Assembly (NCBI RefSeq): GCF_018320785.1
Contig: NC_054885.1
Coordinates: 8,692,921-8,756,920, forward strand
Reading direction: 5' to 3'
DNA from: Cheilinus undulatus
Lineage: Eukaryota > Chordata > Actinopteri > Labriformes > Labridae
DNA length: 64,000 bases
In this document: positions 2,840 through 57,395 of the stretch, one piece after another
Numbering within the stretch: the stretch's first letter is position 1
How the letters are laid out: every line of letters begins with the position of its first letter
Notes under the pieces: generated by a model
What the model was told of the DNA's origin: nothing
Seen by the model: the letters and a program-made list of their open reading frames with translations, nothing else
Databases searched by the model: none
Program-made: the position numbers and the translations under genes

Positions 2840-3950
2840 TTATACAACTCAGTCATATTCACACTTGGTGAGCAGTTGTTGGGCACTCCTCCCTCTGTCT
2901 CTGCCTCCTACAGCACGCGGGATTGCGTAACTGTACAGGCCGTTTTAAGGCTTTATGAGTAAACTGCAGAGAAAGTGAGGCCTTCAGGTGATAAACCAAG
3001 ATTCATGTGCTAACAGACGTGTTGAGAGGGACAAAGAAGCCCCACAGCCTGGAAAAAACCTGGGACACAGACAGCAGCAAAGCCCCCAGGGTCAGGACAA
3101 CTTTTAATTGGGCGTTAATTGGAGCACAATGGAGCAGAAGCAGGATATAATGATTATAATGGAGAACCAGCAGCCATGTGTGGGTGTCATGTCACATCAC
3201 ATGTTGTCACTGGGAAGTGCTTTTGTCAGAACAGGTTCAAAATTAAAAGTGGTTCATCTAGCACTACAGGCTGAAAACACTCACTATGAAGTTAAAAATA
3301 AAGCAAACCTTTATTCCACAAGCTTGTAGGGTCATCATGAAGATTTACAGCCTTTTTCCAGGAGTGGAGGGGCGGAGGTGGTGTTGGTGTGGTTGTGGCG
3401 GGGGGACCAGGACAAAGGAGCAACAGACAGCAAGAGACGGCCTTGTGGTGGACAGGGTTCTAGACGGACGCTGAGGCGGACCCCAGCGAGGTTTAAATCA
3501 GCGATTCATTGGGAAGAAAAGGGGCTGAGGCGGGAAAATGGAGGACAAAGATGTTGCTCAGAGAGTGAATAATTAGACTGCATGCAAGTGTCCTCCAGTG
3601 GTTTTATGAAAAGGATTTTGAAACACCCAAATGCGTCACCATTTTAACTACAAAAGGCTGAAAAAGGCCTCCAGGAAGATTTAGTCTGTTGTTGCACACC
3701 AGACACGAAATCAAGGTCCAGGTCTTCACCTGGACCTGACCACAGGTCTTAATTTGGATGAAGTCTGCCTATTTTTTAAAAGATTTCAACAACAGATGAC
3801 ACACTGAGAAAACATTTTGACTGGTTATTCATCCTTAAATGCCACTTTATTAACAAATGCCCCCTTCTCATGCAATAAGTTGCACTTTATGTATTATTGA
3901 TGCAGAATATTGCACAGTTATCTGCACATCTCAGCTTAAAAAGTAAATTC
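2840..3950. other. Start of intron 1 of gene A, no feature recognised
   Basis: Unique-looking intron sequence. A GGT/GTGG-rich stretch at 3365-3430 and a few short open frames show no family resemblance. No exon with matching phase was found. Confidence 0.4.
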
Positions 3951-3954
3951 TCAG

Positions 3955-5395
3955 TATCAGCAGATATGAAAAATTGTGCTGCTAGTTACACCTGATATTT
4001 TGGCTGAAAAAATCTGCCTATATAGCTATAAAAATGGCTGTAAAACAAATAAGTTCAGTTTCAGTCTCGACCTGTGGCAACTACAAGTATCAGTTCTAAA
4101 TACTGTCAGTAGTTATCGGCCTTTATGAGCTGTCAGTATTAGCCTATATCATCAGTTATTACTGGCCTATAACAGCTGCAACTCTTGGCCTTTATGAACT
4201 GTAAACACCAGCCTATATCAGCAGTAAGTATTGGCCTGTATCAGTAGTTAATATCAGCTTATATCAGCTGTAATAATCGGCCTATACTGGCTTTAAAAAT
4301 CAGACTTTATCAGCTATTATTATCAGCTAATTATGATCCTATATCAGTGTTAACTATTGGCCTACATAAGCTTTATATATCCATCTTAATTGGCTGTTTA
4401 TATCAGCCTATATCGTCCGTAATTATCGGTCTATAACAGTAGTTAATAACAGCTTATATCAGCTGTAATAATGGCCTGTTTAAGCTGTAACTATTGGCCT
4501 GCAAAAGCTGTAAATATCAGCCTATATCAGCTGTGAATTTCTGCCTTTCTTGGCAGTTTGTATCAGCCCATATTGCCAGTAAATATTGGCCAATATCAGT
4601 GGTAAATATCAGCCATGTCAGCTGTAATAATCTGCCTGTATAAGCTGTAATTATTGGCCTATATTGGCAGTAAATATAAGCCTGTATTGTCAGTAATTAC
4701 TGGTTAATAACAGCTGTAGTTATTAGCTTTTATAAGCTGTAACTATTGGCCTATATACACAAGAAATATCTGCCTTTTCAGCTGTAAATGTCTGCCAATA
4801 CTGGCTGTGAATATCAGCCTAAATCAGCAACAATTATCGGCTTATATCAGTGGTAAATATCAGCCTATATCAGCTGTAATAATCTGCATGTATAAACTGT
4901 AACTATTGGTCTTTATTGGTGTGAATATCAGCCTATATTGTCAGTATTTATTAGTCTATAACAGCTGTAGTTATAGGCCTTTATAAGATGTTAGAAACAG
5001 CCTAATTTGGCTGCAAAAATCAGCAACAATTATCGGCCCATATCAGCTGTAATTATTGGCCTATCTAAGCTGTTACTATTGGCCTATATAAGATGTAAAT
5101 ATCAGCCTTTATCAGCTGTAAATGTCCGCCTATACTAGCTGTAAATATAGACCTGTAGTGACTGTACAATGTTGGCCTATATGGGCTGTAGTCTATATCA
5201 GCTGTAATTATTGAGGGTAATTTATTGGCCTATAGAAAGAAGCTGTACATTTTTCTTTTGTTGTTAGTAATTATCATCTGGCTTTAAATATTAGATTTAT
5301 ATATGATTTACATTTTCGAGTTTTAGGCAGGACCAGCAGACCTACCTCAGCTGAAATCTTTTCCTTATTCATGATCATTCCTTAAACTTTAAAGA
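3955..5395. mobile_element. MITE remnant carrying a large internal minisatellite
   Basis: Flanking segments 3955-4060 (CAGATATGAAAAATTGTGC, TATTTTGGCTGAAAA) and 5310-5395 (GAGTTTTAGGCAGGACCAGC, TTTTTCCTTATTCAT-like) match, in the same order, the two halves of the short MITE at 38278-38506 read in reverse. In this copy the middle is replaced by a long tandem array (separate entry). Terminal repeats are no longer clear here. Confidence 0.65.
4115..5235. repeat. 23-bp-unit minisatellite, about 48 degenerate copies
   Basis: Consecutive units of 23 bp with the core GCCTATATCAGCTGTAA run for about 1.1 kb; for example units start at 4142 and repeat with no length change through several consecutive copies. 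Units differ by scattered substitutions, so the array is old. Many copies hold the E-box palindrome CAGCTG. A few units have indels (around 4320-4350 and 5150-5230). Confidence 0.85.
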
Positions 5396-7848
5396 GTTTT
5401 ACATCTGCCTGACATAGTCATTTTATTGACCTTGAATGTATCATAACTTGATGGTTTTATTTCAACACGGATTTGGGTATTTGATCATTACTTTTAACTA
5501 ACTGTGAATTTTCTGAGCAGCCAGTGGAGCATAATACTCCCACAGTCAGAGTTTTTGTTTATTTCCCCCTCAGGTCAACCGTCAAAGGTACTGCATTTTG
5601 GCTGAATTTGATTCACATTGCTGATGTACTTTAAGCTGATGTATGTCTCCTGTCCCTGAAAGTCCTGAGTCAACCTGTGGATATATTTTTTTTCCATTCA
5701 CCTTGGAAAACAGACCTAAGTTGTACGCACATGATTTACCTTGATATTGCAGTTATCACAAATGGTAATAAGTTAGTATAAGTAGCAATACCACCATGAA
5801 ACAATAGTCTGATACAAGCATAAGTGTCTCTTCCAAAATCTTTCTTACACATGTATGACAAATGAAACATAATCTGACAAAAGGAAGATTGCATTCAGGA
5901 GAAGATGTACTACTGGATTGCAACTGCAGATGCATTAACGTGTTCATGACTTAAATGTTGCAGACGGTGAAGATCAAGCTCATTCAGATTGATTCAGTTT
6001 GAGACTGTGATTGAAAACCTAGCCAGAGGGGAAGACATACCTCACAGGGGAGCCACAGTAGCTTTTTGTAGAATAAATCACCGATACAGATAATAGACAA
6101 AATCCCAAATAATGGCCCAGATAATCAGTCGAGCCCCAGCAAGGGCTTTTATGTGGACATCTCAGTGGCAAATTATGCAACTTCTGTGAGGCTGCATATC
6201 TGCAGACTTTTCTTTGTGATTTACCCAGAGTTCATTGTAAAATGTGATGTGAAGAGAGTGACCCTTCACACCACAACGGGATAATAAAGACAACCTTTAG
6301 AATAAATTCAATCAAAGCAAACACGGGTGTATGATGTGAATATGTTTATTCGGGCAGTCTGCCGAATCTTAGAAATACTGCAGTGAAAGAATACAAAAAA
6401 AGACATGAAGTGGGCTTTCTTCCATCATTTAAGGCACATCTTGTTACCAGGCAACGTGATGTCTTGATAGTGTGCCCAGTTACTCATTTTTTTCCAGAAA
6501 TCTCAGGCCCTTGTGGACTGGCACTCTCCCACTACTCACCTAACGCCATTAAAGACTATAAGAGTTAGCCAATTTGGTTTAAACAAGCAGGTCAGTGCAG
6601 TCTTCAGCAAGTAGGCCATGGCTCATTCCCAATACACGCCTTGCCTCTCTACCACTTAGCTTTGGATGTTGGTGTCTAGGGGTCTGATATCCTGATTCAT
6701 TTTAAAATGGAGGGTTGAGGTGCAGTACTAAGGCTACATTTTCCTTCAAATGGAGATTTTGAGCCAAACTGAACTGGCTGTTATGGGAATTCTCCCAGAA
6801 TGTCCTGTGAATCAGAAGTGAGATTTGGAAACTACAGCAATGATTTAATGGCATAGTTTAATGTTGTTTAAAATCAAGCATTAAAAAACAAATGAACTGC
6901 ATGGTATGAGTACTTCCAAGGCCTGACACACTGACGGTGAGGTGGTGAATTTAAGTCAGATTGTATATTGATGTCTCTGACATCAATTCATCACAGGATC
7001 CTGTTGTAAAAATCCAAAGACTTGAAAGCACATCACTGCAGACAGTATTAAGACGACTGACACTTCAGCACACCTTCATCACCTGTTGTGTTTATTGCGT
7101 AAATAAGAGACATGTGTAAGCCTGCAGACAATCACAACATTGTCTCATAATCAGTCATAGAGCAAGGTGAGTTCTTCAGGATAAACTAAAGGGAAATAAA
7201 AACTTTTAAAGAAAGCTTTTCCATTGAAGAAGTGTTCTCTCTCATGATAGCCTACATGGGTGGATGTTGCCGGTGGACATGGCCTCTGTGACATAATGTG
7301 AAGAAATCAGCGTGGGTCCCATGAACTAAAAAAAGCTGCGGTAAAACTCATGTAATGATGAATGGTGGATATTTTTGCACTGAAGGAGGAGCGTGTAAAT
7401 GCAGCTGTAACATGGTATATTAGATTATTCTTTACATTATGGCCCGTCCTGCAGTAGCAAATATATGAATCGTGGTGCTGAAGCATCTCCATGTCTGTGT
7501 CAGAGAGTTTCCTTGTTGTTTTCTGCTGGTTGTTGGTGTGATTCGCCACTTAAAATCTTTGCTCTACTGGCTCACTTTTTATCCATTTTCATTCATGAAA
7601 TGGTTTGTATTGACTATTTATCACTGAATATGAGGTAGAGGGTACATTTCCAGGTAGATGGGGATTTCTAGAAAAAGAGTTGCATGCAGGCGTGCATGTG
7701 TGCAGTTTTATAGAGCTGAAGTGTTTTTGGTGCACGCCATTCTCAGGCTTTTAGAGCACTTTTTTAAAGTATAGATGGTCCCCTGCTTTTTTTTTAACTT
7801 TTCTTTGTTATTTATAAGGACATAATTATGAGAAAGCATCAACAAAAG
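5396..7848. other. Intron 1 of gene A, mostly unique; small hAT-like remnant near 6070-6140
   Basis: No exon-like open frame with matching phase was found. A short segment around 6080-6140 (ACCGATACAGATAATAGAC, ATAATCAGTCGAGCCCC) resembles the end of a fish hAT MITE. The rest shows no recognisable element. Confidence 0.35.
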
Positions 7849-9474
7849 CAAAAGTGTCAAACTCAGTTCCAGCAGGTGCCAGATGCTGAATTTAGGTCTA
7901 ACATGAGAGCCTAACAGTCAAAATAAACCGTCAACCTTGTTTTCAACAGTATTAAATTATGGGGGAAAAATCTTAGCACTGATGATAAATGATAACGAAA
8001 TTTAAAAAGTCAAAAGAGAAGTTTAAAGGCTCAAAATTTGAGATTAAAAAGACAAACTTATTAGTTCAGAGGGTCAAAACATGAAATTGAATGTCAAAAT
8101 AATGTCTTTAAAAGGCAAATATATGAAATGGAAAGTCGCAATCATGCTTCAAAGGTGAAAATGTGAGATAAAATTCAAAATCATGAGTTTAAATTGTGAG
8201 TCTCAAAGGTAAAAAATGTGGGATTAAAAGTCAAAGTTTGGAGTTGAAATAGTCAAAACATGCAATAAAATTTGGAATAATAGGTTGAAAAGGTCAAAAT
8301 TTGACTTAAAATTTAAACTTGTGAATCACAAAGGTCAAAATATGGGTTAAAAATTTAAATTGTTGGTCTAAAACAGTGTTGCTCAACCCTGCACAACCAA
8401 AGAGCCAAACTGTTGAAAAAATTACCTTTACAAGGGCCACAATCCAAGTGGTAAAAAAGTGACATTAAAGATAAGTTAAATATGGCAAAAATGGTCTAAA
8501 GGTGACCAAAAAGTGGCAAAAATGGGTGGAAAGGTGCAAAATAGGCATAAGATATCAAAAACTGGGTGAAATTGGCAAAAATTGGGAGTAATTGTGGCAA
8601 AAAAGGGCAGAAAGTGGCTAAAATGAGTGAGAAGTGAAAAATTTAGTTATATGTGTCAAAAATAGTCAAGAAACAGCAAATATGTAGCAAAAAAAAAAAC
8701 AAAAAACAAATGAAAGTGACTAGCATGGGCAAAATCAGCAAAAAGGTGGGAAAAATGGGCATTTAATGGCAAAGGGCAGCTGAAATGGGCAAAAAGTGGG
8801 CTAAACACGGCAAAAATGGGATAAAAGTGGCAAAAAATGGAGAAAAGGGGCAAAAAATTGCAAATAATGGCAATGGAAATATGCGGACAAAAAATTAAAT
8901 TAAAGCCTACTGTTTAAATGTGGGAAACTGATTTATGTGACTTGCAATGGATAATTCAAAGGTCAGAGTTTCCCTTTTTAACATTTAAGACTTAAAAGAG
9001 CCGCAAATCATCACAAAAGAGCCACATGTGGCTCAACAGGCATGGTTTGAGTATCACTGGTCTAAAAGGTCAGAATATGGGATTAAAAGTCAAAGTTTGG
9101 AGAAATGGTCAAAATGTGACTTAAGCTTCAAAATTGTGGATCTGAAAGGTCAAAATTTGAGATAAAAAGTCAAAATCATGAGTTTAAGTCAGAATTATGA
9201 GAAAATTGAAAATATGAAACGAAAAACAAAAAATAACTTCATTTCTACATCCTGGCTTTTATATCTAATTATTTTTACTCTTTTTTTTTTGGTTTCAATT
9301 TTATGACTTATAAAGGACATTTTAAACCATAAAGGCTAAGTTTACATCTTTATGCTGGAGGGAATCTGCAGACCTCATACCCCTGGGCTAGTTATACTGA
9401 AAATATCTGGAGGGCTGGGTATAACTTTACCACGGGCCGGTTTTGGCCCCTGGGCCTTGAGTTTGACACCCCTG
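7849..9474. mobile_element. Outer hAT-like element with internal GTCAAAA tandem array
   Basis: The left terminus CAAAAGTGTCAAACTCA (7849) and the right terminus, read in reverse, CAGGGGTGTCAAACTCAAGG (9474) form terminal inverted repeats. The flanking 8-mers AACAAAAG (7841-7848) and AACTAGAG (9475-9482) match at six of eight positions, consistent with a decayed 8-bp hAT duplication. The interior (7950-8365 and 9068-9230) is a degenerate tandem array of GAGATTAAAAGTCAAAAT-like units. No transposase is present; the element is non-autonomous. It is interrupted by a second element at 8374-9059. Confidence 0.75.
8374..9059. mobile_element. Inner hAT element nested in the tandem array of the outer one
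   Basis: The 686-bp element begins CAGTGTTGCTCAACCCTGC and ends so that its reverse begins CAGTGATACTCAAACCATGC. It is flanked by a perfect 8-bp duplication GTCTAAAA (8366-8373 and 9060-9067). The subterminal GAGCCACATGTGGCTC is typical of vertebrate hAT relics. The middle (about 8450-8880) is its own tandem array of GTGGCAAAAATGGGC-like units. No transposase frame remains. Confidence 0.85.
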
Positions 9475-11060: not shown

Positions 11061-11960
11061 AGATGCAACAGACTCTTGCTCAACACCAGTAAAACAAACT
11101 ACATGGTGTTCGGATCCAATAAAAAAAACCCGACATTAAACAAATCTGTCTAAAGATAAACGGAGAAATTATCACAAGAGTTGGCTCTACAAAATTCCTG
11201 GGAATCCTGATTGATGAATTTCTTAACTTTAAATACCATATTGAAGATCTCACAAAAAAATTATCTAAGTATGCTGCTCTATTTTTTAAGTTGAGACATT
11301 TCCTACCACTCTCTGCACTTCTTACCTTGTACAAAACTCTGTTTCAGCCTCACTTAACCTACTGCAATATTATATGGTGTAGCACATTTCCAACCTACCT
11401 AAAAAAGCTTGAGACACTCCAAAAAAAAGGTCATCTGCACCTTATCTTGGTCCGAGTTTAATGCCTCTACCAGGATGCTCTTCCACCGTTACAGCCTCCT
11501 GAGGCTTACTGAGTACAACTACCTGCAGAATGCTTGTACAATGTACCAACTTGTCCATAAACAAAACGACAAACTAAGTAACCTCATTCCAATCTTTCTA
11601 CCAAACCACAGTTACATCACCAGGAACAACAATAAAATCATTGGGAAAAAACGTAGGCTACAATGCACTAGCTTCAGCTTTGTCTGCAGAGGACCACAGA
11701 TTTGGAATGAGATTACAGAGAAACTGAAAATGTCACATACCATATCCGCCTTCCAGAAAATTCTAAAAAAGCAACTTCTATCGTTGTATGTCTAATCTAC
11801 TGCTTATATGAACCATCTTGTCTTTGAAAATCACCTGCCATATTATTCCACCTATCCATCTCTCTAGACATATGCATATCTGTTATTGTATATCTGTATG
11901 AACCAACAAACCTAATCCAACCAGATCACTGGAACTATGTTTTTTTGTTTTGTTTTGTAT
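11060..11960 (+). mobile_element. 3' part of a degraded non-LTR retrotransposon (reverse transcriptase C-terminus)
   Basis: Conceptual translation gives the C-terminal part of a LINE reverse transcriptase: KTNYMVFGSN, then TKFLGILIDE, a thumb-like region (LPLSALLTLYKTLFQPHLTY) and, after a frame break near 11405, 11409-11795, which ends with a RGPQIWNEI block typical of L2/Rex/jockey-like elements. The 5' part with the catalytic core is missing, and there is at least one frameshift. An untranslated tail continues to about 11960. It is 5'-truncated and dead. Confidence 0.75.
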
Positions 11961-14412: not shown

Positions 14413-14665
14413 AGGGATGCACGATATTATCGGTCTGGTATTGGTATCGGCAGATATCAAAATTTCTTTTTGTGGGTTCCTTTCAAGGGTTAACTGGTGA
14501 CTTAGAATTGTCCGTGGGTGTGCCTGGTTGTTCGTCTCTTTAGATCAGCCCTGTGGTTAATTGGCGAACAGTCCAGGGTGAACCCTAACCAATGATGGCC
14601 AGGATCAGCTCCAGTCCTCCACGACTCTGAACAGGATAAGCGGTGTGGATAATGGGTTCAAAATG
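14413..14665. mobile_element. MITE end joined to a LINE 3' tail
   Basis: 14413-14470 (AGGGATGCACGATATTATCG, then TATCGGCAGATATCAAAA) matches the terminus of the 38278-38506 MITE family. It is cut at about 14475 by a segment ending in CTGAACAGGATAAGCGGTGT (about 14490-14655), the conserved 3' end of a common teleost non-LTR retrotransposon family. This looks like retrotransposon insertion into an older MITE. Confidence 0.6.
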
Positions 14666-20960: not shown

Positions 20961-22365
20961 TGGGCAACAAAATGTTTAAGTCAAATTTTACACAATCTGG
21001 GAGGTTTGTCCTGGAGAAGGTGATAAAATACTTCAGTCTTATTTTTCCGTCTTTACACACTACATGAGTCCGTTAAACTTCAAGGCTCTGTTGTTTCTCT
21101 GTTTTAGTACAACTCTTTTCTTTTGTGTCCTCGAGGGATTTTATTTCTGTTTGGTTGTTACTTAATTTCAGGAAAAATGTGAACCGAAGGGTTTTATTGT
21201 GTTGTGCTTTTGCCCCGGGTAATGACTGACAGGAAATCAGTGCAGTCAGCTGTTTTCCCTCCACAGCGGGGAACTCCCTTCAGCGTGTTTGTCTTTATCA
21301 GACGTGTTAGTGGTCGTGTTTCTGGACGCTTGTTACTGAGACCAGTGTCTGTTTCCTGCTTTTGTTTGGTCCCTCTATTTCAGTGAGCGTTCAGAGGTTT
21401 GACTGAAACCTCGACTCCACCGCACAAACAAACAGACCATAGCCGAGCTGATTCATGTTTCAGTGGTCTGATGACGGAGGAGCAGATTGTTACCAAATAT
21501 GATTAGTTTATTTAGACTGGAACTGTTGTTTTTTTATTCCTGCTCAGCTCATTTTAATCTTCATTGTAAGAGTCCTCTTTCTTTTTAACTTCTGTTGAGT
21601 TATTGTCCTTTTGTGTCTTTAACTGTTCTTTGTGTTCGGTTTTGTTTTACGACTCTCCTTATCACGATTAAACAGAACAGTGGGCGTTGTGGTTTTTAAC
21701 CGTTCCTTCAAAAAAGCCAAGGATATATTTAATAGCCACAATTACAGGCATGATTGAATGAATGTTTGTCATTTCATGATAATATCAAGTTTTTCTAAAA
21801 TGAAAAAGTGATGGTGCAAATGCTGACCACTGCAAGGCTGCAGAGTCGTATTTTCATGAGGAAAAACTGGAAGCAGTTGCTTCTTTCTACAGCACCTGCA
21901 GGTTTGCATTCAACCAATCAGAAGTGCGCAATTTTAGCAAACCAAATTCACTTCAGTTTTCAGAAATTCCCATTAAAATGAGTTCATATCTGGCCTTTAG
22001 CTGGTGAGTAAAGCCATGGTGTCTACTGCTGACTCATCAGATGAACTGTGCTTCTCTGGGGATTAAAAAATGGCATTCTCCATGTTGCAGACGTAAACAC
22101 CTCACATTAGAGGAAATTCTGCCAGGAAGTCGTTGAACATTAATGACTTGCTTCACTGGAACAAAAGAAAAATGGAAAAAAAGGAGTGGAAAACCCCACA
22201 TCCGTTCCCAGAGGTAAAACGCATTTGTCAGAAGATAACTGACAAATTTCGTGATAATACTCTTATCAAAGCAACTAAATTTTTTTTAAATCATTTGTAC
22301 CATATTATATATTCATCTTTAAAATGTAAATCCATTTTCTTAAACATAATAAAAATGAGTTGAAG
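20961..22365. other. Intron 1 of gene A, no feature recognised
   Basis: Unique-looking intron DNA with short chance frames. Nothing with exon-like borders. Confidence 0.35.
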
Positions 22366-22680
22366 GTGGGGGAAATTAGTTGAAAGTTGCAAAAATAGGT
22401 TCAAGTGGCAAAAATGGGCATGAAAAGTGGTATTATTGGCTTAGACGTGGCAGATTTTGCTAGGAAAAAATGGTGAAATCAAATAAAAAGTGGTGGAAAT
22501 GGGGTTAAAGGGATCATAAATGGGTGGAAAATGTAGTGAAATGGGATTTAAAAAGTAAAAATCATCCTGAACTGGCAAAAGAGGGCAGAACAATTAGTTA
22601 ATGTGGTTATAATTGACAAAAATGGATGTAAAAAGAGGTGAATAAGGGTTAATTGAGGCAATAATGGGTCTACAGATGCA
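22366..22680. repeat. Degenerate GTGGCAAAAATGGGC tandem array
   Basis: Units such as CAAGTGGCAAAAATGGGC and TTGAAAGTTGCAAAAATAGG are of the same kind as the array inside the inner hAT element at 8374-9059, and as the reverse array at 47150-47600. Element termini are not clear here. Confidence 0.6.
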
Positions 22681-25400: not shown

Positions 25401-25409
25401 TTAGCCCTT

Positions 25410-31220: not shown

Positions 31221-31320
31221 CCCAAACCGTCCCAAACCATTCCAAACTGTCCCAAACCATCCCAAACCGTCCCAAACCATTCCAGACTGTCCCAAACTGC
31301 CCCAAACCATCCCAAACCGT
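31221..31320. repeat. 10 x 10 bp tandem array in intron 3 of gene A
   Basis: Ten units of exactly 10 bp, consensus CCCAAACCRT, with no length change from 31221 to 31320. Units end mostly GT or AT in near-alternation. Open frames on the minus strand across it (WFGTVWDGLG repeats) are a product of the period. Confidence 0.95.
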
Positions 31321-33584: not shown

Positions 33585-34775
33585 AAGAACCTACACTGTT
33601 GTAAGACTCAGGTGATTTTAGTGTAAAGACAACTGTGTCTGGAAGGTCCAATCTCTGGTAATCAGTTTTCCTTGTTACCATTACACCATGAAGACAAAAG
33701 AACACTCGAAGCAACTCAGAGAAAAGGTTATTGAAAAGTATAAGCCAGGGGATAGGTTAAAAAAAATTTCAAGGTACTGAACACCCCCAGAGTTCAGTTA
33801 AATCCATCATCAAGAAATGGAAGGAATATTGTGCATGTGTAAATCTGCTTATATCAGGACGTCCTCACAAACTGAGTGATCATGCAAGAAGGAGATTAGT
33901 GAGAGAGGCCACCAAGACACCTATGGCTACTGTGAAGGAGTTCCAGGCTTCAGGAGCTAAGATGGCAGAGACTCTGCATACAAAAACTGTTGCCCAGGTT
34001 CTTCATCAGTCAAAGCTTTATGGTAGAGTGGCAAAGAGAAAGACACTGTTGAAGAAAACTCATTATATCTCAACTAGAGTCCAGAAAAGGTATGTGGGAG
34101 ACTCCATAGTCAAGTAAAAGAAAGTTCTTTGGTCTGATGAGATCAAAAGGGAGCTTTTTGCCATCGGACAAGACACCAAACACTGCACATCACCATAAAC
34201 ACACCATCCCCACTGTGAAGCACAGTTGTGGCAGCATTGTGCTGTGGGGATGCTTCTCAGCAGCCGGCCTTGGAAGGCTTGTAAAGGTAGAGGGTAAAAT
34301 GAATCTGGCAAAATGTAGGAAAATCCTGGAGGGCAATCTATTTCAATTTTGCAAGAGAACTACGCTTTGGGAGGAGATTTATTTGCCAGCAAGACAATGT
34401 TCTGAAGCATACATCGAAAGCTACACAGAAATGTTTTAAAGATGAGGTGAATGTTCTGGAGTGGTCGAGTCAAAGCCCAGACCTCAGTCCAAAAGACTAA
34501 CCCTAACCCTGACCCTGTGCAACCTGACAGAGCTTGAGCAGTTTTGCAAAGAAGAAAGTAGTAAAATACCCATCCACACAGACTCAGTGCTGTGATTGCA
34601 GCCAAAACAGCATCTACTAAATACAAACTTAAAGGGGGGGTATTTGTACATTCACTTATTTTACATTACATTTACTGATTGGTGTTACTTTGTAGAAATC
34701 TATTTTCACTTTCACATTAAAGAGGTCAAAAAGGCCAAATTATATTGACTGTTTACATTATTAGTTCATTATAAA
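33585..34775 (+). mobile_element. Degraded near-full-length Tc1-like transposon
   Basis: In intron 4 of gene A. The left part has the helix-turn-helix region (TCTGGAAGGTCC-type start, ACACCATGAAGACAAAAGAA). The middle has TTCTTTGGTCTGATGAGAT and ACACCATCCCCACTGTGAAG, where catalytic-domain blocks are encoded. The right part has the recognised Tc1 tail (TTTGTAGAAATCTATTTTCAC, CACATTAAAGAGGTC). Several frameshifts and stops are visible; inactive. The CTAACCCTAACCCTGACCCT stretch near 34498 lies inside it. Confidence 0.8.
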
Positions 34776-36240: not shown

Positions 36241-36690
36241 ACACTATATTGCCAAAAGTATTCCCTCACCCATCCAAATAATTGAAATCAGGTGGTCCAA
36301 TCACTTCCATGGCCACAGATGAATAAAATCAAGCACCTAGGCATGCAGACTGTTTCTACAAACATTTGTGAAAGAATGGGTCACTCTCAGGAGCTCAGTG
36401 AATTCCAGCGTGGTACTGTGATAGGATGCCACCTGTGCAACAAGTCCAGGTGTGAAATTTCCTCGCTCCTAAGTATTCCACAGTCAACTGTCAGTGGTAT
36501 TATAACAAAGTGGAAGCAATTGGGAACAACAGCAACTCAGCCACAAAGTGGTAGGCCATGTAAAATGACGGAGCGGGGTCAGCACTTGGCAGCACTCTCC
36601 CTACTCTCGTCCCATTCCCGACTCTATCCACTGTCCTCCTCTAACGAATAAAGGCACTAAAAAGCCCACAAATCTTTAAAAAAAGAGAAG
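36241..36690 (+). mobile_element. Truncated Tc1-like element fused to a SINE 3' tail
   Basis: The left terminus ACACTATATTGCCAAAAGTA is that of a common teleost Tc1/mariner group. 36292-36600 encodes its N-terminal DNA-binding region (SGIITKWKQLGTTATQPQSG). It stops at about 36595 and is followed by GACTCTATCCACTGTCC and AATAAAGGC (about 36598-36690), a tail like that of the SINE at 10501-10675. The catalytic half is missing. Confidence 0.7.
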
Positions 36691-38277
36691 AAATCCTGAA
36701 CATTGGGCAGCACTTGTTACAGAAATTTAAAACAGGGCCTTCTAGGAGAAAGTCCTGGGAAAAGTAAGGGTTTAAAAATTGGACTGTTTGCCTTAAAGCA
36801 TGTGTTAACCCTGACATTTTTGGGAAATTTTGCTGATTTTTGGGCTTTGATCTAAGCACTTGACAAACAGGCATAGTACTGCTACTGAAGCAGAAGTATT
36901 TTGAAATTAAAAAGCTGTAAAAGTGAGAAGAACAGCTGACTTGAAGGGTATTTTTGTGCAAAGACCACCACTGGTTTTGTTCAGAAAATAGGCTCCATCA
37001 GCACGGAAAAAAACAAATTAGTGGACACCAGCTCTCTATCTTACTTTACTGTAAACACTCAGGTTTCTATACTTTCTCCAACTTGAAATTCCACCAAATC
37101 TTAACAGCCCAGAAAACTTTTTTCCCATCAATCAGGAAGCAGGATGCATGTTTTCAAGGGCTTTAAAATATTCTAACTTGAAAATTAAGATTGTTGTACC
37201 CCAAAACTGGACAAGAAGACCCCTCTGACTACAACCTGGATATGAAACAGGAAAAACTGACCCCAGAAGCACCTAAAGAGGAGAGGTCAGATCCAATGTG
37301 ACGAAGGGAAAACGCATTAAAACTCCTCATCCTGCTGTACATCCACCTCCTCTTCTTCTCCTGTTAAATGTTTTAAATAGACAGGAAACGTGCTCCAGCT
37401 GCTGCAGGTGAGTTTCAGTGCGGGCAGGTGAAATATTGTTGCAATAAGCTCGTCACCGCAGCAGCAGGACAGTCGGAGCGTTATTTCCCTTCTCCCGTTT
37501 CCTGTGTGATGGTGATTTCGTGGATCTGTACAGCGTGACGGTCGCTCACACAGGCAAAGTGACCTTTGATTTTCTACGTTTGTTTTTAAAGTGCTCTTTA
37601 TTGTTTTCGTCTCAACAGACAGACTGGATTTTTTTAAAATATTGAAACAGGATTATCTTCAGGTGCATTTTTCGTCATGTTTTGGACTTTCAAAGAGGAA
37701 TTTTTTTGTGTTGCTTCTTGTACAAACAAAAGGAAGATGAACTGTCTTCAGTGGCATCGATTGTTTGGACTTGCTGAATGTGAATCTGCAGTTTTAATCG
37801 TTTTTGTTGTACAGTTTTTATGTTTCAGACAGAACTGATGATGAAACGAGAGGAAAAAAGGAGGAGGAATGGTTGAAATCTGCGACAGGTTACTCCTCCG
37901 TCTCCTTCTGTCTTTCCTTACATCCTTCCTACCTTCATCTTCTCCTCGTTCTTCGGTCCAGTTCGGTTTATGTTAACACACATATACCTCCTTACAAGTA
38001 AACAAGCTGGAAGTGATCATTATTTGTTACATTTTTCTACAGAACTACCTTTTTCTGGCTTCTACTAATTGTTTTATTATGTTTACTTTAAAAAAAAACG
38101 TATCTGTATGGAAGCCTATTGATGCCAGGAAAAAAAGTAATGCAAAGGTAAAAAAATGAAAATAATGACAGATTAATCAAAGTAAATATTGAATGTTGCA
38201 ACATTGCAATTTAGAGATTTAGAGCCAGAGTAAGACATCTTCTCTTTTTTTAAATGAAAGAAAAAATACATGAGATT
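36691..38277. other. Downstream of gene A: unique region with a consensus splice donor
   Basis: 37180-37560 is less repetitive than its surroundings. A frame ends at TGA 37302 with QEDPSDYNLDMKQEKLTPEA, and CAG|GTGAGT lies at 37405-37413. No matching acceptor with a clear pyrimidine tract was found just upstream. This may be distal 3' UTR or an unrecognised exon. Confidence 0.3.
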
Positions 38278-38506
38278 AGGGATGCAGGATATCGGATTCT
38301 TGCTGTAAGAAATGAGGATGAATAAGGAAAAAGACCAGCTGATGTAGGTCTGTTGCCATGCCTAAAACTCTGCTAACTTATTGGTTCAAACAGCCAGTAT
38401 TAACAGCTGATATAGGAAAGTTTTAGCCAAAATAGTCATCGTAAATATTGGCACAAGTTTTCATATCTGCCGATACCGATACTCGCTGACAACATCGTGC
38501 ATCCCT
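38278..38506. mobile_element. Short MITE (parent-like copy without expansion)
   Basis: 229 bp from AGGGATGCAGGATATCGGAT to a right end that in reverse reads AGGGATGCACGATGTTGTC. The interior, in reverse, has CGGCAGATATGAAAAC, CCTATATCAGCTGTTAAT and GAGTTTTAGGCATGGCAAC, the same order as the flanks and core of the minisatellite-bearing copy at 3955-5395. Confidence 0.75.
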
Positions 38507-40950
38507 GCAGGAGACATCAAGTCTCAAGTTTTTTCCTTTCTACAATTAGACAATAGGATGACTTTTAATATTTTGCAACTATTTTTTAACCCTTTCCTGG
38601 CAGAAGCAATCGTCTTGTAATGAACCAGATATAAAGAAAAGACTATTATCTTTTAATTTCATAGAGTTTGAAATTGAAAGGCAGTTTTTATTATCTTACA
38701 AAAAAGTGTGGAATTTAATTTTATTTTTCAGATACAGAACTAGCTTTTTGGAACTATTCTTTTGGATCTAAATGTGCATTCCAATATGTGGTACCTGCTC
38801 GATTGGGCTTGGTTCTACTTGGTTTTGGAAGCAGGCTCTTTGCTTTCAAGTATAGGTTGTTTTTAATCATGATACCGAATGCCTGATGAAATGGGGGCAG
38901 CTGTAAGGAATGAAAGTTAGTGTGTTAGCTCTACATTGACTTACTTTGAGTGCAATCCCCACACTTTACAAAACAGTAGGTTTTCCTCAGTTAAATCAGT
39001 TTACTGGGCATGGAGGTGTTCAATATCACACTTAACTCAGTCCTACAGACCTCCTCGTGTCGTCTAGCCAGATGAGGGGAGATGAGTCTTGAGGATTCTT
39101 ATCCTGAGCCAAGAGGCTAGCCTACCCCCTTTATCATGTAAAAAATGCATCATATGCCACAAACATGCTCTTAATTGGAATGGCAATATACAATCAACCA
39201 AATAGATCCTGTGAGGAGAGCGACCGAACAAAGGTGTGCCATTCATGAACGAGCCCGTGCTACAAAACGGCTCTTTACTGACAGCCACAGTAGCTAGCTC
39301 CTGTTTGAGTGCCAGTTTCCTTTCCTCCATCCTTTATCGTTATTTCATCCATTTAAAAAGCCTAACTGGTACGAAATGAAGAGCTCTACTGAGCATAGCT
39401 AAATTATCTGGATCTCTTAAAAGACAGGTTTCCCCACACAATGAGCGAGACTGCAGACATCAGCTTTACTGTACAAAACTGACAAACTGTGCTGAACCAA
39501 ACCAGAGCATTTTGTGGAAATGGAACGTACATGAGTGTCATGTGACACCGCTAGTCTAGGCTTTTTAAATTCCAGCCTGCCTCTGTTTCTCTGCAGGTTT
39601 TTAAAACTTTTTTTTTCTGAATATTTCATTACTTTATGGCACAAAAGTAATGGTTTAGTTCTAGAGAAGTGAACACAGAGAGACTCATTAAAAGGTCCCA
39701 GTAATCTTATGCTCAGACATGACTAGTGAAGAAGAGGGTGTACTACTGAATATGCATTTAAATGCTTTATCTCATTTAATACTGTAATGGTCTGATACAA
39801 TACTGATGCAGTAAGGGATACAAAATACTGATATATTTAGGCCATATGTCCCAGGCCTACCAGGAGCCCTGATCCCTAATGGAAGAAAGAGTAAAGCCAA
39901 AGCTTTATTGAGCCGGTACTACAGAGTGGAAGAGCACACAAAGCACATAAAATTTTGTTTTTAAAATTAAAAACAAAAGAGCAACAAGCATGAAACTGAA
40001 TCCCTTGAAAAGATAACTGACTCTGACTAATTATTTTCCTGTCTATAATTTAGTCCATCTGATTTGTATGGAAGCCAATTATAGCCAATGAGAAATGATA
40101 GATATTGCATCAGCATCCTAAATTAAATTAATCAGTCGAGGTTTTTATTAATCCTAAAGGGGAAAAATGTTGTAAAATGACCATTTTTGGTGTTTTGATT
40201 TTAAAAAGACTAAATATGTACTGATTTTATTTTATTTTTATGTGGAAGAAATGAGCTTCCATATCAACCTGCCACAGGGATGATTCAAAGTACAAAATGA
40301 TGTCAAATTATTTTTGAAATCCTTAGAAGCAATGCCTTGTAATTGTCCAGAAACGAAAAATGATGCAAAACACAAAAAAGAAACAAATGAGACAAAAAAA
40401 AAAAAATGTCATGACTTTTAAATTGAAGATAACAATGGTGCCTATTAGCTCCCGCATGCTGGATCAAGTGCTGCCTTCAAATGGAAATCGTGACGCCATG
40501 TAGAGCAACCTTTTTTCCATCAAGCCCCCCACCACAAAATGTGGTCAACATTTAAAGCCAAACACGATAGCCTTAACCACCAATTAGCAAAAGACCTTGG
40601 TATGAGCCATTCAGAATGGTTTTATCATGATTTTAAGGAAGTTGGAGTGGACCTAATTTTAACAACTAGCAGACAGGCCATCACACCCCCCCCCCCCCCG
40701 AAATCTCTGGCGCCCTCCAAAGGGGTCCTGGACCCCAGGTAGGGAACCAAGGATGTAGAGGACAGGCTTGGAATTCAACAGCCGTGCTTTGAGTATCTCT
40801 GTCTAGATGAACACTTCCTACCTTTTGGTCTCTCCAGAGAAAAAACGAGGTCCATAGGCTCCACTATTTTTTAAGACTTCATCACTTATATCAAAATGTA
40901 TGAACTTTGAACTTTCAGAAAAGGGAATACCATAAAAGGTTCATATAGAA
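38507..40950. other. Intergenic or distal 3' region, no feature recognised
   Basis: AT-rich DNA with chance frames (for example 39064-39330 minus). A run of 14 C lies at about 40686-40699. Confidence 0.35.
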
Positions 40951-46864: not shown

Positions 46865-47640
46865 ACAGGGGTCATCAAGTACATTTAGATAAGGGCCAGA
46901 TTTTTTAGAGAGATATTTTTAGGGACTCTGGGGGCCGGGCTTTCAAATAAACAAAAATTAAATATTTTGGTCTGATTAATATATTGTTGTATTAGTATTT
47001 GTATTTTCTTTCAAAAAGTAGTTGGCATTATAGGTGAGATCTATCCCTATTATCTATACTGCAGGAGGACATAAGGAGACAGGCCGGCCCACAAAATTGG
47101 CTGGGCCCCTGAAAATTCCAGAGAATGATCCCTCCCCAGTTGTGATTTAGCACCAATATTTTCACATTTTTGACACTTTTTAAACACCTTTTCACTACTT
47201 AATTTTGGTCATTTCTGAACATTTTTTGCAACTTTTAAAACCAATTTTTGCCCATTTTTGCTCGTGTTTCACTCTTTAACCCCTGTTCACTACTTTGCCA
47301 GACTATTTTTGCTAACTTTTTCCACTTTTAAATCACTTTTCCTGCACCTTTTATCCCCCTAGTGCCACTCTTACCCATTTTTGCCACTTTTTACCCCTTT
47401 TCATTACTTTTTGTACAATTTTTGCAACTTTTCACCCATTTTTAAAACTTTTTGTCCCTTTTTTCCTCTTTTATCAATTTTTGCAACATTATAACCTCTT
47501 TTCGCCTCTTCTCCTGCCAATCTTTGTCCCTTTGTGCCACTCCACGACCCATTTTGACACTTGACTCCCATTTTTGCAACATTTCTACCGGTCTTAACTC
47601 ATTTTCTGTCTTAATCTGTAAAAACAGGTTAACTGTTTAG
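46865..47640. mobile_element. hAT-like relic with TTTTTGCCACTTTT tandem array
   Basis: Starts CAGGGGTCATCAAGTAC with GGGCCAG and GGGGGCCGGGC, like vertebrate hAT ends. 47150-47600 is a tandem array of CCATTTTTGCCACTTTT-like units, the reverse complement of the arrays at 8450-8880 and 22366-22680. The right border is not clear. Confidence 0.6.
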
Positions 47641-55150: not shown

Positions 55151-56291
55151 ACATATGTTTAAAACACAACAATTTTGCTTAATGAAATCATATCATCTTG
55201 CCATACAAAACCAAAAGAAAAAAAGACTCCAGCAATGTTTGAGAAGGGGCAGAAGGAAGCTTGAACGCTTATCTGGTTCTGCCTCTACCTTCCATATTAC
55301 TTGATTTTGAGAGATTTTTGATATAACATCCATCTGTGATTTTAAATGCTGGGAAAAAGAAGTCTTTTTTTGTCTAAGTGAGATAATATAACTTTGTGTC
55401 TGTTATTCAAGAGACCTTTTTATTGAGGATTTTTTCACAAATGGGTTGTTTATTTTTATATAATTTTATTTTATCATATATATTGACATGGTGCAGCTGG
55501 CTTTAGTGTTAGTGCCTGTTTGATAGTAGGCATTTAGCCATGTGGATTTGACTTAGAATTGACTTTGTTTTTGTTATTTCTTTAAAAAACCAAAATCAAG
55601 ATTTACACTGGTATCCACATTCAGCCAAAAAGTAGTAAAACTGTGATTTTTGGTTGGTACAAGAGTCATCACAATTCTCTAGACTGATATGGAGATCATG
55701 ATCATTAAACACAATAACACATTGATTTTAAAACATCTGTATTACATGCATTTATAAAACCTAAATACCACTTTGAAAAAGAAGCGACATCCCTATATTT
55801 TGGTCCATATCACCAAGCCCTTGTGTGCAGGAGTTTCTCTGCAATTTTTGGTGATTTAAAAAAAAAAAAACAAAAGGAGTGGCCTAGTACCTGGTACCCA
55901 GGACTTCTATTTTTGGCATTGCAGAATTTATTTACTTAGTTTTGTTTAACCTCTATTTTACCACCATTTAGATACAAAAATCTCTTTCACAAGGGGGTCT
56001 CAACCAGGACAGTGGTCACACATATGACAAACATAAGACCGTGACAAATTAAGGTTGCATAGATGAGCAAATCAGCAACTTTAAGATGTAAAACGTGCAT
56101 ACTCTTGTATGCGCATTGCATTGTTGTGCTTTGGTCTTTACTACTATCATGACTATTATTTAGGTGTAAAATCTCATGAAAGCCCTGAATCAGACAGTGA
56201 TAAGACAAAGGGCTCATGGGTATACAAGACAGCAGTGACAATCACATTTGAAATAAATGACCTTTACCATTTTTTTGTGTTTGTGTTTCAG
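55151..56291. other. End of intron 2 of gene B
   Basis: AT-rich, with an A-run near 55858-55870. The frame of exon 3 stays open back to 56109, but the acceptor at 56291 and the intron-like composition argue against coding. Confidence 0.45.
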
Positions 56292-57395
56292 GTGACAGAC
56301 ACGCTGGAATACATCAAGTCTGACCACCATGTGGACCTGCACTGTTACTACACCACCGAGCTGAGCTCCCTGAAGTGTGAGTACCCAGAGTCCAACGCCT
56401 TCTCAGGTCATCACAACGGTCTAGAGTCCATCCACATGGCCGAGCTTCGCACCGAGCTCAACAAGCTGCGTCCTGACGCAGTGCTCCTGGACGGCATGGG
56501 CAAACTGGACTCTGAGTTTGGAGGGGGGGCGCTGTACGAGCTGCAGCCTGCCCAGGATGGGAAGACTACAGCTGAGGGGACAGCTGTAAATGGGCAGACG
56601 GGAGCTCCTGTCCCTGTGACCAAAACCCAAAACCCCACTGTGAGGAAACCCCGGAACATGCAGGGTGAGAAGCCGTTCTCCTGCACACAGTGCGGCAAGA
56701 ACTTCAGCACACTGGGGAACCTGAAGACACACCAACGAATCCACACGGGGGAGCGACCCTACACCTGCTCACAGTGTGGTAAGAGCTTTGGCCAGGCCGG
56801 AAACCTCAAACGCCACCAGTTGATCCACACGGGCCAGAAGCCATACGTGTGCGCTCACTGTCCCAAAGGCTTCACAAAGGCAGACGACCTGCGCTCTCAC
56901 CAGCGGCTGCACACTGGCGAGCGGCCGTTCATCTGCGTCACCTGCGGGAAAAGCTTCGGCCAATCCAAAGAGCTGAAGGCTCACCAGCTCAGTCACACGG
57001 GCGAGCGGCCTTTCTGCTGCCAGCACTGTGGCAAGAGCTTCAGCAAGGAGACCAGCTACCGGAACCATGTGCAGATCCACACAGGTGAGAAGCCTTTCAC
57101 CTGCTCGCAGTGCGGAAAGACATTCAGCAACTCAGGCGTCTTAAAGACCCACGAGAAGATCCACTCAGGCGAGCGGCCATTCGGCTGCACGCAGTGCGGG
57201 AAGAGCTTCGGCCGCCTCGGACACCTGAAGGCTCACCAGCAGATCCACACAGGGGAGCGGCCGTACGCCTGCCCCCAGTGTGGGAAGACTTTCAGCCAGT
57301 CAGGTCACCTCAAAGCTCACGAGCAGATCCACAAACGAGAGCGCGTGGACACTGCGAGTAGCAGCAACAGCAGCATGGGCAGCGACAGCAGCTAA
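56292..57395 (+). CDS. Eight-finger C2H2 zinc-finger protein B, exon 3 (zinc-finger array)
   Basis: The acceptor is TGTGTTTCAG|GTG (phase 0) and the stop TAA ends at 57395; 367 residues. It starts with LEYIKSDHH and SLKCEYPES, two more lysine motifs (K167, K186) echoing exon 2, then a linker with [20 protein letters not shown] and a Thr/Val/Pro-rich spacer. From about residue 287 to 508 there are eight consecutive C2H2 fingers (C-x2-C-x12-H-x3-H) joined by TGERP/TGEKP-type linkers. The linker after finger 2 is TGQKP and that after finger 6 is SGERP. All metal ligands are present in all eight. A Ser/Asn-rich tail closes the protein. This is a sequence-specific nuclear DNA-binding protein. The antisense open frames over the fingers are shadows. 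Confidence 0.95.

Follow-up and report, generated by a model that had tools for sequence, protein, structure and literature searches.

The window, which is the whole 64,000-nucleotide stretch of Cheilinus undulatus DNA that was analysed, has a GC content of 0.40 and contains a C2H2 zinc-finger gene at 56085-57395 that is related to fish si:dkeyp-113d7.1. The best named protein match of its open reading frame is a Notolabrus celidotus protein, with 93% identity across 97% of the frame. Open frames that by eye resemble pieces of a LINE-type reverse transcriptase (11123-11795) and of a Tc1-type transposase (33761-34117 and 36286-36651) are also present. In addition, TRF identified ten copies of the 10-bp unit CCCAAACCGT at 31221-31320, where a higher period of 40 bp is also seen, and several distinct arrays whose period is close to 20 bp at 8556-8623, 8809-8858, 9063-9176, 22351-22415 and 47363-47484. 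This study is concerned with a degenerate tandem array at 4100-5213 and with a short transposable element, a MITE, at 38277-38507.

The 23-bp array and the 38-kb MITE

The array at 4100-5213 is located on the forward strand and consists of about 50 degenerate 23-bp units with the consensus CCTATATCAGCTGTAAATATCAG. A wrap-around profile built from 37 gap-free units of the array gives 985 bits over this strict span of 1114 bp, corresponding to 49.8 unit lengths, and TRF finds 23-bp periods from 4107 to 5190. The initial annotation, which described a 1.1-kb minisatellite of about 48 units with a 23-bp period, is borne out by both methods. The array is an old and decayed example of its kind and has not been caught in the middle of its expansion. 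The pairwise identity of its units is 0.65, against 0.83-0.92 in six other arrays or array parts. Identity to the core consensus of the transposon family described below is 0.763 for the window units and 0.911 for single cores, and the two flanks of the window array have identities of 0.85 and 0.89 to the family consensus. Given this distance, the window units would be older, faster changing or foreign. However, an argument on age is weak, because much of the divergence is concentrated in a few columns, and the 12 best columns have an identity of 0.795. Downstream of the array, the stretch 5214-5317 on the same strand is neither clear unit nor clear element; 5219-5317 has a weak likeness to the unit profile (p=0.03), and bases 155-177 of the family consensus were not found in 5240-5320 (p=0.39 and 0.67).

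The MITE at 38277-38507 is located on the reverse strand and is a shortened member of the family, with the family ends and a single core. The flanking 8-mers, 38269-38276 and 38508-38515, agree at six of eight positions. As the initial annotation had claimed, the element holds one unit, at 38394-38416 on the minus strand (MITE bases 92-114), which scores 29.1 bits, ranks fourth of 38 when placed among the 37 gap-free array units, and outscores every other unit-like 23-mer that the window contains beyond the array region. Six unit-like 23-mers are found outside that region, against 2.45 expected and a maximum of six in 20 shuffles. Two of the six are the MITE core, counted on its two strands, and those at 25406, 26368, 27120 and 54065 were rejected as family copies as no family context is visible by eye. 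A fragment of a third copy is present at 14413-14465 on the forward strand with 83% identity to MITE bases 1-52; it comprises the 5' end only, and neither a right half nor any further part was found downstream of 14470.

Both flanks of the array match this MITE. The left flank, 3951-4055, corresponds to bases 29-133 of the 231-bp element (read as the reverse complement of 38277-38507) with a score of 81, and the right flank, 5318-5384 (5386 at most), corresponds to bases 138-202 with a score of 72. The two matches are in order and on one strand, and neither score was reached in any of 2000 shuffles (means of about 18, maxima of 34 and 33). The proposed match of the flanks to the two halves of the reversed MITE is thereby confirmed, which places the array, far beyond chance and as judged from the alignments, within a copy of the MITE's element.

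The transposon family in the host genome

The host genome (1.17 Gb, 46 contigs) was searched, and 60 family loci were taken from the best 40 of 1263 and the best 40 of 885 candidates. Without the window array (L042) and L069, which is a repeat of L036, 58 copies remain, including the 38-kb MITE; they were picked by their likeness to the window and are not a sample of the array-bearing share of the whole family. The family consensus, built from 42 loci (L069 included) and the window MITE, and from 50 loci for the right half, is 440 bp long, has the 23-bp core at 132-154 and ends in short terminal inverted repeats, TAGGGATGCA and TGCATCCCTA. Target-site duplications were measured in the 21 of 58 copies with both ends at at least 8/10. 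The 8-bp duplication has a mean of 5.57 matches out of 8, against a null of 2.15 +/- 0.28, and the signal peaks only at length 8 and shift 0. An 8-bp target duplication is a mark of hAT elements, and Tc1/mariner elements have a 2-bp TA target site; with its 8-bp duplication the fish family is not of the latter type. Judging from these duplications and the short terminal inverted repeats, the family is hAT-type, and its consensus length of 440 bp suggests that it is non-autonomous. The 38-kb MITE is without two large blocks of this consensus and is a doubly deleted derivative, not the progenitor. It is therefore not the plain pre-expansion form that the initial annotation had seen in it.

Copies with a single core predominate in the examined set. 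With units counted at 10 bits or more, the longest in-phase run is one unit in 53 of the 58 copies and two units in the other five. In 48 measured copies, identity to the consensus is 91% for the core and 88% for the remainder of the element, and core column 22 is G in 45 of the 48. The 23 bases just before the core (consensus 109-131) are a decayed unit, with 14 of 23 bases identical in register (p=0.001); the best other adjacent pair of 23-base stretches in the consensus has 11 matches. In addition, the consensus contains a perfect 13-bp inverted repeat at 93-105 and 143-155, with its 3' arm in the core, against a longest inverted repeat of 10 in 200 shuffles. Across 53 copies, 79% of the pairs between the arms are retained and only two double changes occur, which gives no indication that the hairpin is important.

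Against the family consensus, the array-bearing copy in the window can be followed further than against the MITE. The left part, at 3899-4072 on the forward strand, corresponds to consensus 5-194 with 85% identity over 173 aligned bases and 18 gap columns; its outermost 5' end is weak when taken alone (p=0.02 and 0.11 in two scorings). The right part, at 5318-5400 on the same strand, corresponds to consensus 178-261 with 89% identity over 83 bases, and a search for the remaining 3' part, up to the terminus of the element, was negative (p=0.12). The left flank thus runs through the core to consensus base 194, and the right flank begins at base 178 (5318). The surviving counterpart of the single core lies outside the array, at about 4017-4037 on the forward strand (end coordinate placed by eye), and is aligned in line with its neighbours. 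Bases 115-137 of the MITE, which follow directly after the core, are found to the left of the array (p=0.007) and not to the right (p=0.98). The initial annotation had put the array at the place of the single core, but in the window copy it begins further downstream.

A possible direct repeat of about 16 bp flanks the array, with the left copy AGTTTCAGTCTCGACC at 4057-4072 (consensus 179-194, 13 of 16 bases identical to the consensus) and the right copy AGTTTTAGGCAGGACC at 5319-5334, within the right part of the element copy, both on the forward strand. With the family consensus, p is 0.03 and 0.07 in two scorings; tested against the single MITE copy, the duplication was not supported (p=0.49 and 0.91). 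A direct repeat at the array borders is therefore suggested tentatively.

Multi-unit copies and dispersed satellite arrays

The initial annotation had proposed a search for copies of intermediate length, and this search was successful. A query made of the left part, three units and the right part was used, and from the best 40 of 5917 candidates the five loci that looked multi-unit were fetched and read. The copy on contig C20 at 12.09 Mb consists of the 5' end and consensus 1-112, four units and the right part, which matches consensus 269-435, or 157-435 with gaps. At 23.18 Mb on C22, consensus 5-113 is followed by 15-16 units (15 hits over 356 bases) and then by 155-296. The copy at 20.56 Mb on C24 has about 20 units (17 clustered hits over 459 bases) followed by 158-277, with an end-like CATGCATCCCTTA recognised by eye; the left family part was not seen at this locus. 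On C2 at 19.03 Mb, a 5' end recognised by eye and consensus 60-120 precede some 820 bases of decayed units and then 155-217; the length corresponds to about 36 units, and 18 hits reach at least 9 bits.

The longest of these copies, on C24 at 3.16 Mb (L140 and L143; 3.156-3.159 Mb), has at least 110 distinct unit hits followed by consensus 155-440, and 110 is a lower bound as the array still continues at the edge of the fetched sequence. Many of its units are identical to the single-core consensus, those of L140 are mostly of the MITE-like column-22 type, and the copy ends in a complete right half including the terminal repeat. It is a candidate for a young expansion. The last unit joins consensus base 155 directly in the copies on C22, on C24 at 3.16 Mb and on C2 (L138, L140 and L142 among the loci), and the junction at 20.56 Mb on C24 (L139) is in the same register, aligned from base 158. 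Multi-unit arrays thus stand at the core position, with 4, 15-16, about 20, about 36 and at least 110 units.

A second junction query (best 40 of 2435 candidates) gave rows that look single-core. Six loci were fetched as possible two-unit copies and have one strong core each; three of the six also have a weaker in-phase unit upstream (13, 15 and 18 bits). The internal repeat of one family therefore occurs as one or two units, in 58 copies, and as 4 to at least 110 units, in five others.

The same 23-bp unit forms satellite arrays elsewhere in the genome, and some of these have family remains at their borders. With the window array as query (best 40 of 1403 candidates), at least 158 matches were obtained, with 67-78% identity apart from the self match and spans of up to about 9 kb, and at least 35 arrays besides that of the window are among the matches listed. 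At each of these many loci the unit is repeated head to tail, and in some arrays the units are homogenised. The stretches flanking the arrays at 0.61 Mb on C19 and 42.75 Mb on C17 are nearly uniform. Units ending in CAG prevail in L132, L134, L135 and L137 and make up 31 of 64 units in L133 and 32 of 112 in L136; this tail is rare in single cores.

The borders were studied in 30 of the 35 arrays with the units masked and with a family-border score of 44 as the cut. Family remains on the correct side and the correct strand are present at nine of the 30, with 10 of 60 correct-side scores at or above the cut. These arrays are located at 10.42 and 19.47 Mb on C24, 39.04 and 48.23 Mb on C11, 10.34 Mb on C22, 50.76 Mb on C7, 5.47 Mb on C21, 1.60 Mb on C3 and 6.48 Mb on C2, the last being bordered on both sides. 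As controls, one of 180 wrong-side or wrong-strand scores reached the cut (45, at 2.08 Mb on C24; the next was 29), and the 171 control stretches yielded two passing scores, 57 for a left border and 72 for a right border. The wrong-strand piece is a right-end piece (consensus 379-438, score 45) beside the array L106-L107, at 2.075-2.079 Mb on C24, and may be a separate insertion or an inversion. Two further borders were left uncounted: the left border at 5.47 Mb on C21, which is weak (p=0.0085; one of 263 window stretches as high), and the right border at 10.34 Mb on C24, which scores 34 and is below the cut. In seven of the 30, the fetched sequence did not leave the array on one side or both, and 23 were reached on both sides; of the latter, nine are bordered and 14 have no family border at or above 44. 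Altogether, 21 of the 30 are without a family border at the cut used, seven of them with a side that was not reached. Arrays without element ends therefore exist alongside element-borne ones.

The position of the arrays is uneven. On the 24 large contigs, with the window included and with the arrays on C38 and C40 and the five intermediates left out, 21 of 34 arrays are located within 4 Mb of a contig end, against 16% expected (p=3e-9, under the assumption that contig ends are chromosome ends). None of the 78 scored family matches lies within this distance, although these are the best-scored matches and faster change near the ends could hide copies there. The location of arrays towards contig ends and of family matches inside hints at a measurable link to recombination.

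Origin of the arrays and related systems

The window array is probably an old tandem expansion inside a copy of this roughly 440-bp, non-autonomous hAT-type family. The claim that a transposon seeded a satellite is supported at the level of the family, in which 53 of 58 copies have one core, intermediates are graded and the unit forms satellite elsewhere; it is not supported for the window copy as an example, as the array there is decayed and is located downstream of a surviving core. The two in-phase units may allow expansion to start through slippage or unequal exchange, and the hairpin of the inverted repeat, which may stall replication, perhaps contributes. Further unequal exchange would lengthen the arrays, and long arrays would shed their transposon borders to become ordinary satellite. 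In the window copy a further step is suggested by the location of the array beside the core, where two copies of a short repeat possibly enclose it. This could have been an additional duplication, a recombination with satellite DNA at the short repeat, or an insertion.

A broader and more tentative reading, somewhat less probable than its opposite, is that the family has acted as a repeated generator of satellites. The in-phase seed dimer and the adjoining inverted repeat would have allowed independent expansion of the core in numerous insertions. The result would be copies with 1-2, 4, 15-16, about 20, about 36, about 50 and at least 110 units as well as kilobase arrays, with expansion favoured near chromosome ends and single-core copies in the interior. 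An unlikely but serious alternative on the number of origins, which leaves the seed itself unaffected, is that a single element gained an array and that this form spread by transposition with later lengthening and shortening. Base 189 is A in four of nine array-bearing copies and in none of the 54 with a single core, and the array copies are also richer in several other changes; both observations come from an uncorrected comparison over about 286 columns, with single copies picked by likeness to the window. A tree of the copies needs seven label changes, against 8.6 in shuffles, with 34 of 500 shuffles as low. However, the array copies are no more alike among themselves (0.691) than they are to single-core copies (0.717; permutation p=0.99), all nine have a single-core copy as their nearest row by identity, and the tree is without any well-supported branch and proves neither side. 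As the array copies share rare bases yet are no more alike overall, and the tree lacks resolution, recurrent expansion is not proved.

Less probable again is an origin in which the satellite came first, the element took up one monomer, and arrays later recombined into copies through the shared core or a short repeat. The position of the window array off the core, with its possible direct repeat (p=0.03 and 0.07), would agree with such an invasion, as would the greater divergence of the window units than of their flanks and the CAG tail that is common in many arrays and rare in single cores; capture of a pre-existing repeat was also reportedly proposed for miDNA4, in what PMC12628747 relates of it. 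It is opposed by the intermediates with 4 to about 36 units at the core position, by the decayed unit that precedes the core in register, and by the L140 units, which are mostly of the MITE-core type. An ancestral element with an array, from which the 38-kb MITE and the other single-core copies arose by collapse, is very improbable. The divergence of the window units relative to their flanks and the decayed in-register neighbour of the core would fit a contraction, but the former is weakened as an argument on age by the much-diverged columns (0.795 in the 12 best). In addition, 53 of 58 copies have one core at one place with adjoining sequence that is family-wide, so the collapse would have to have been very early. 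Finally, it is scarcely credible that an unrelated minisatellite resembles the element core by chance. Exact 19-base matches to the unit do occur in 11 stretches of bacterial contigs, which were rejected as relatives since they are most likely due to chance; another unit pattern scan of genome contigs, and the scans of viral contigs, gave no matches. The 29.1 bits of the MITE core, the order and significance of the flanks, and the intermediates refute such a coincidence. Expansion from the core within the element is preferred.

The conversion of MITEs to satellites is already known, having been described in Xenopus (miDNA4 and Xstir) and in other organisms, and in the model set out in parts of two reviews, arrays grow in a MITE, which then loses its ends (PMC12628747, PMC9659126). 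What is notable here is an unusually full series in one genome. The birth of satellites is usually inferred from end products. In this fish, elements with a single core coexist with short arrays located at the core, with long arrays that retain one transposon border and with satellite that has none. With all stages side by side, the mechanism of birth, namely dimer slippage, hairpin, unequal exchange and chromosome position, becomes testable through orthologous insertions in related fish. Neither the family nor its unit appeared in a literature search that covered few subscription papers and was done without a repeat library, and a text search for sequence words gave unrelated titles among the matches listed.

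The closest known system is miDNA4 of Xenopus tropicalis (Scalvenzi and Pollet 2014), which the relevant parts of the reviews present as a Tc1/mariner-type MITE with an internal satellite (PMC12628747, PMC9659126). In both cases the internal repeat is present either as a single monomer or in arrays whose copy number varies, and arrays are thought to turn into classical satellite after the ends decay. The fish family differs from what is related of miDNA4 in its hAT-type 8-bp duplication, its 23-bp unit and the decayed in-phase neighbour of its core; the authors of miDNA4 favoured the capture of a pre-existing repeat, according to the passage in PMC12628747. The fish family thus works like miDNA4 but outside that element family. 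Likewise, the parts of the reviews on Xstir and the Xmix MITE of Xenopus (Hikosaka and Kawahara 2004) describe MITE, tandem array and composite in one genome, with repeats derived from the MITE (PMC12628747, PMC9659126). This is a different element, for which a stem-and-loop mechanism has been proposed, as far as PMC12628747 describes it. Tandem repeat-containing MITEs in another animal, the clam Donax trunculus, are likened to the fish family by their title (PMC12628747), and a minisatellite within a MITE is also described, in the part of PMC4596501 that concerns it, in the bacterium Porphyromonas gingivalis.
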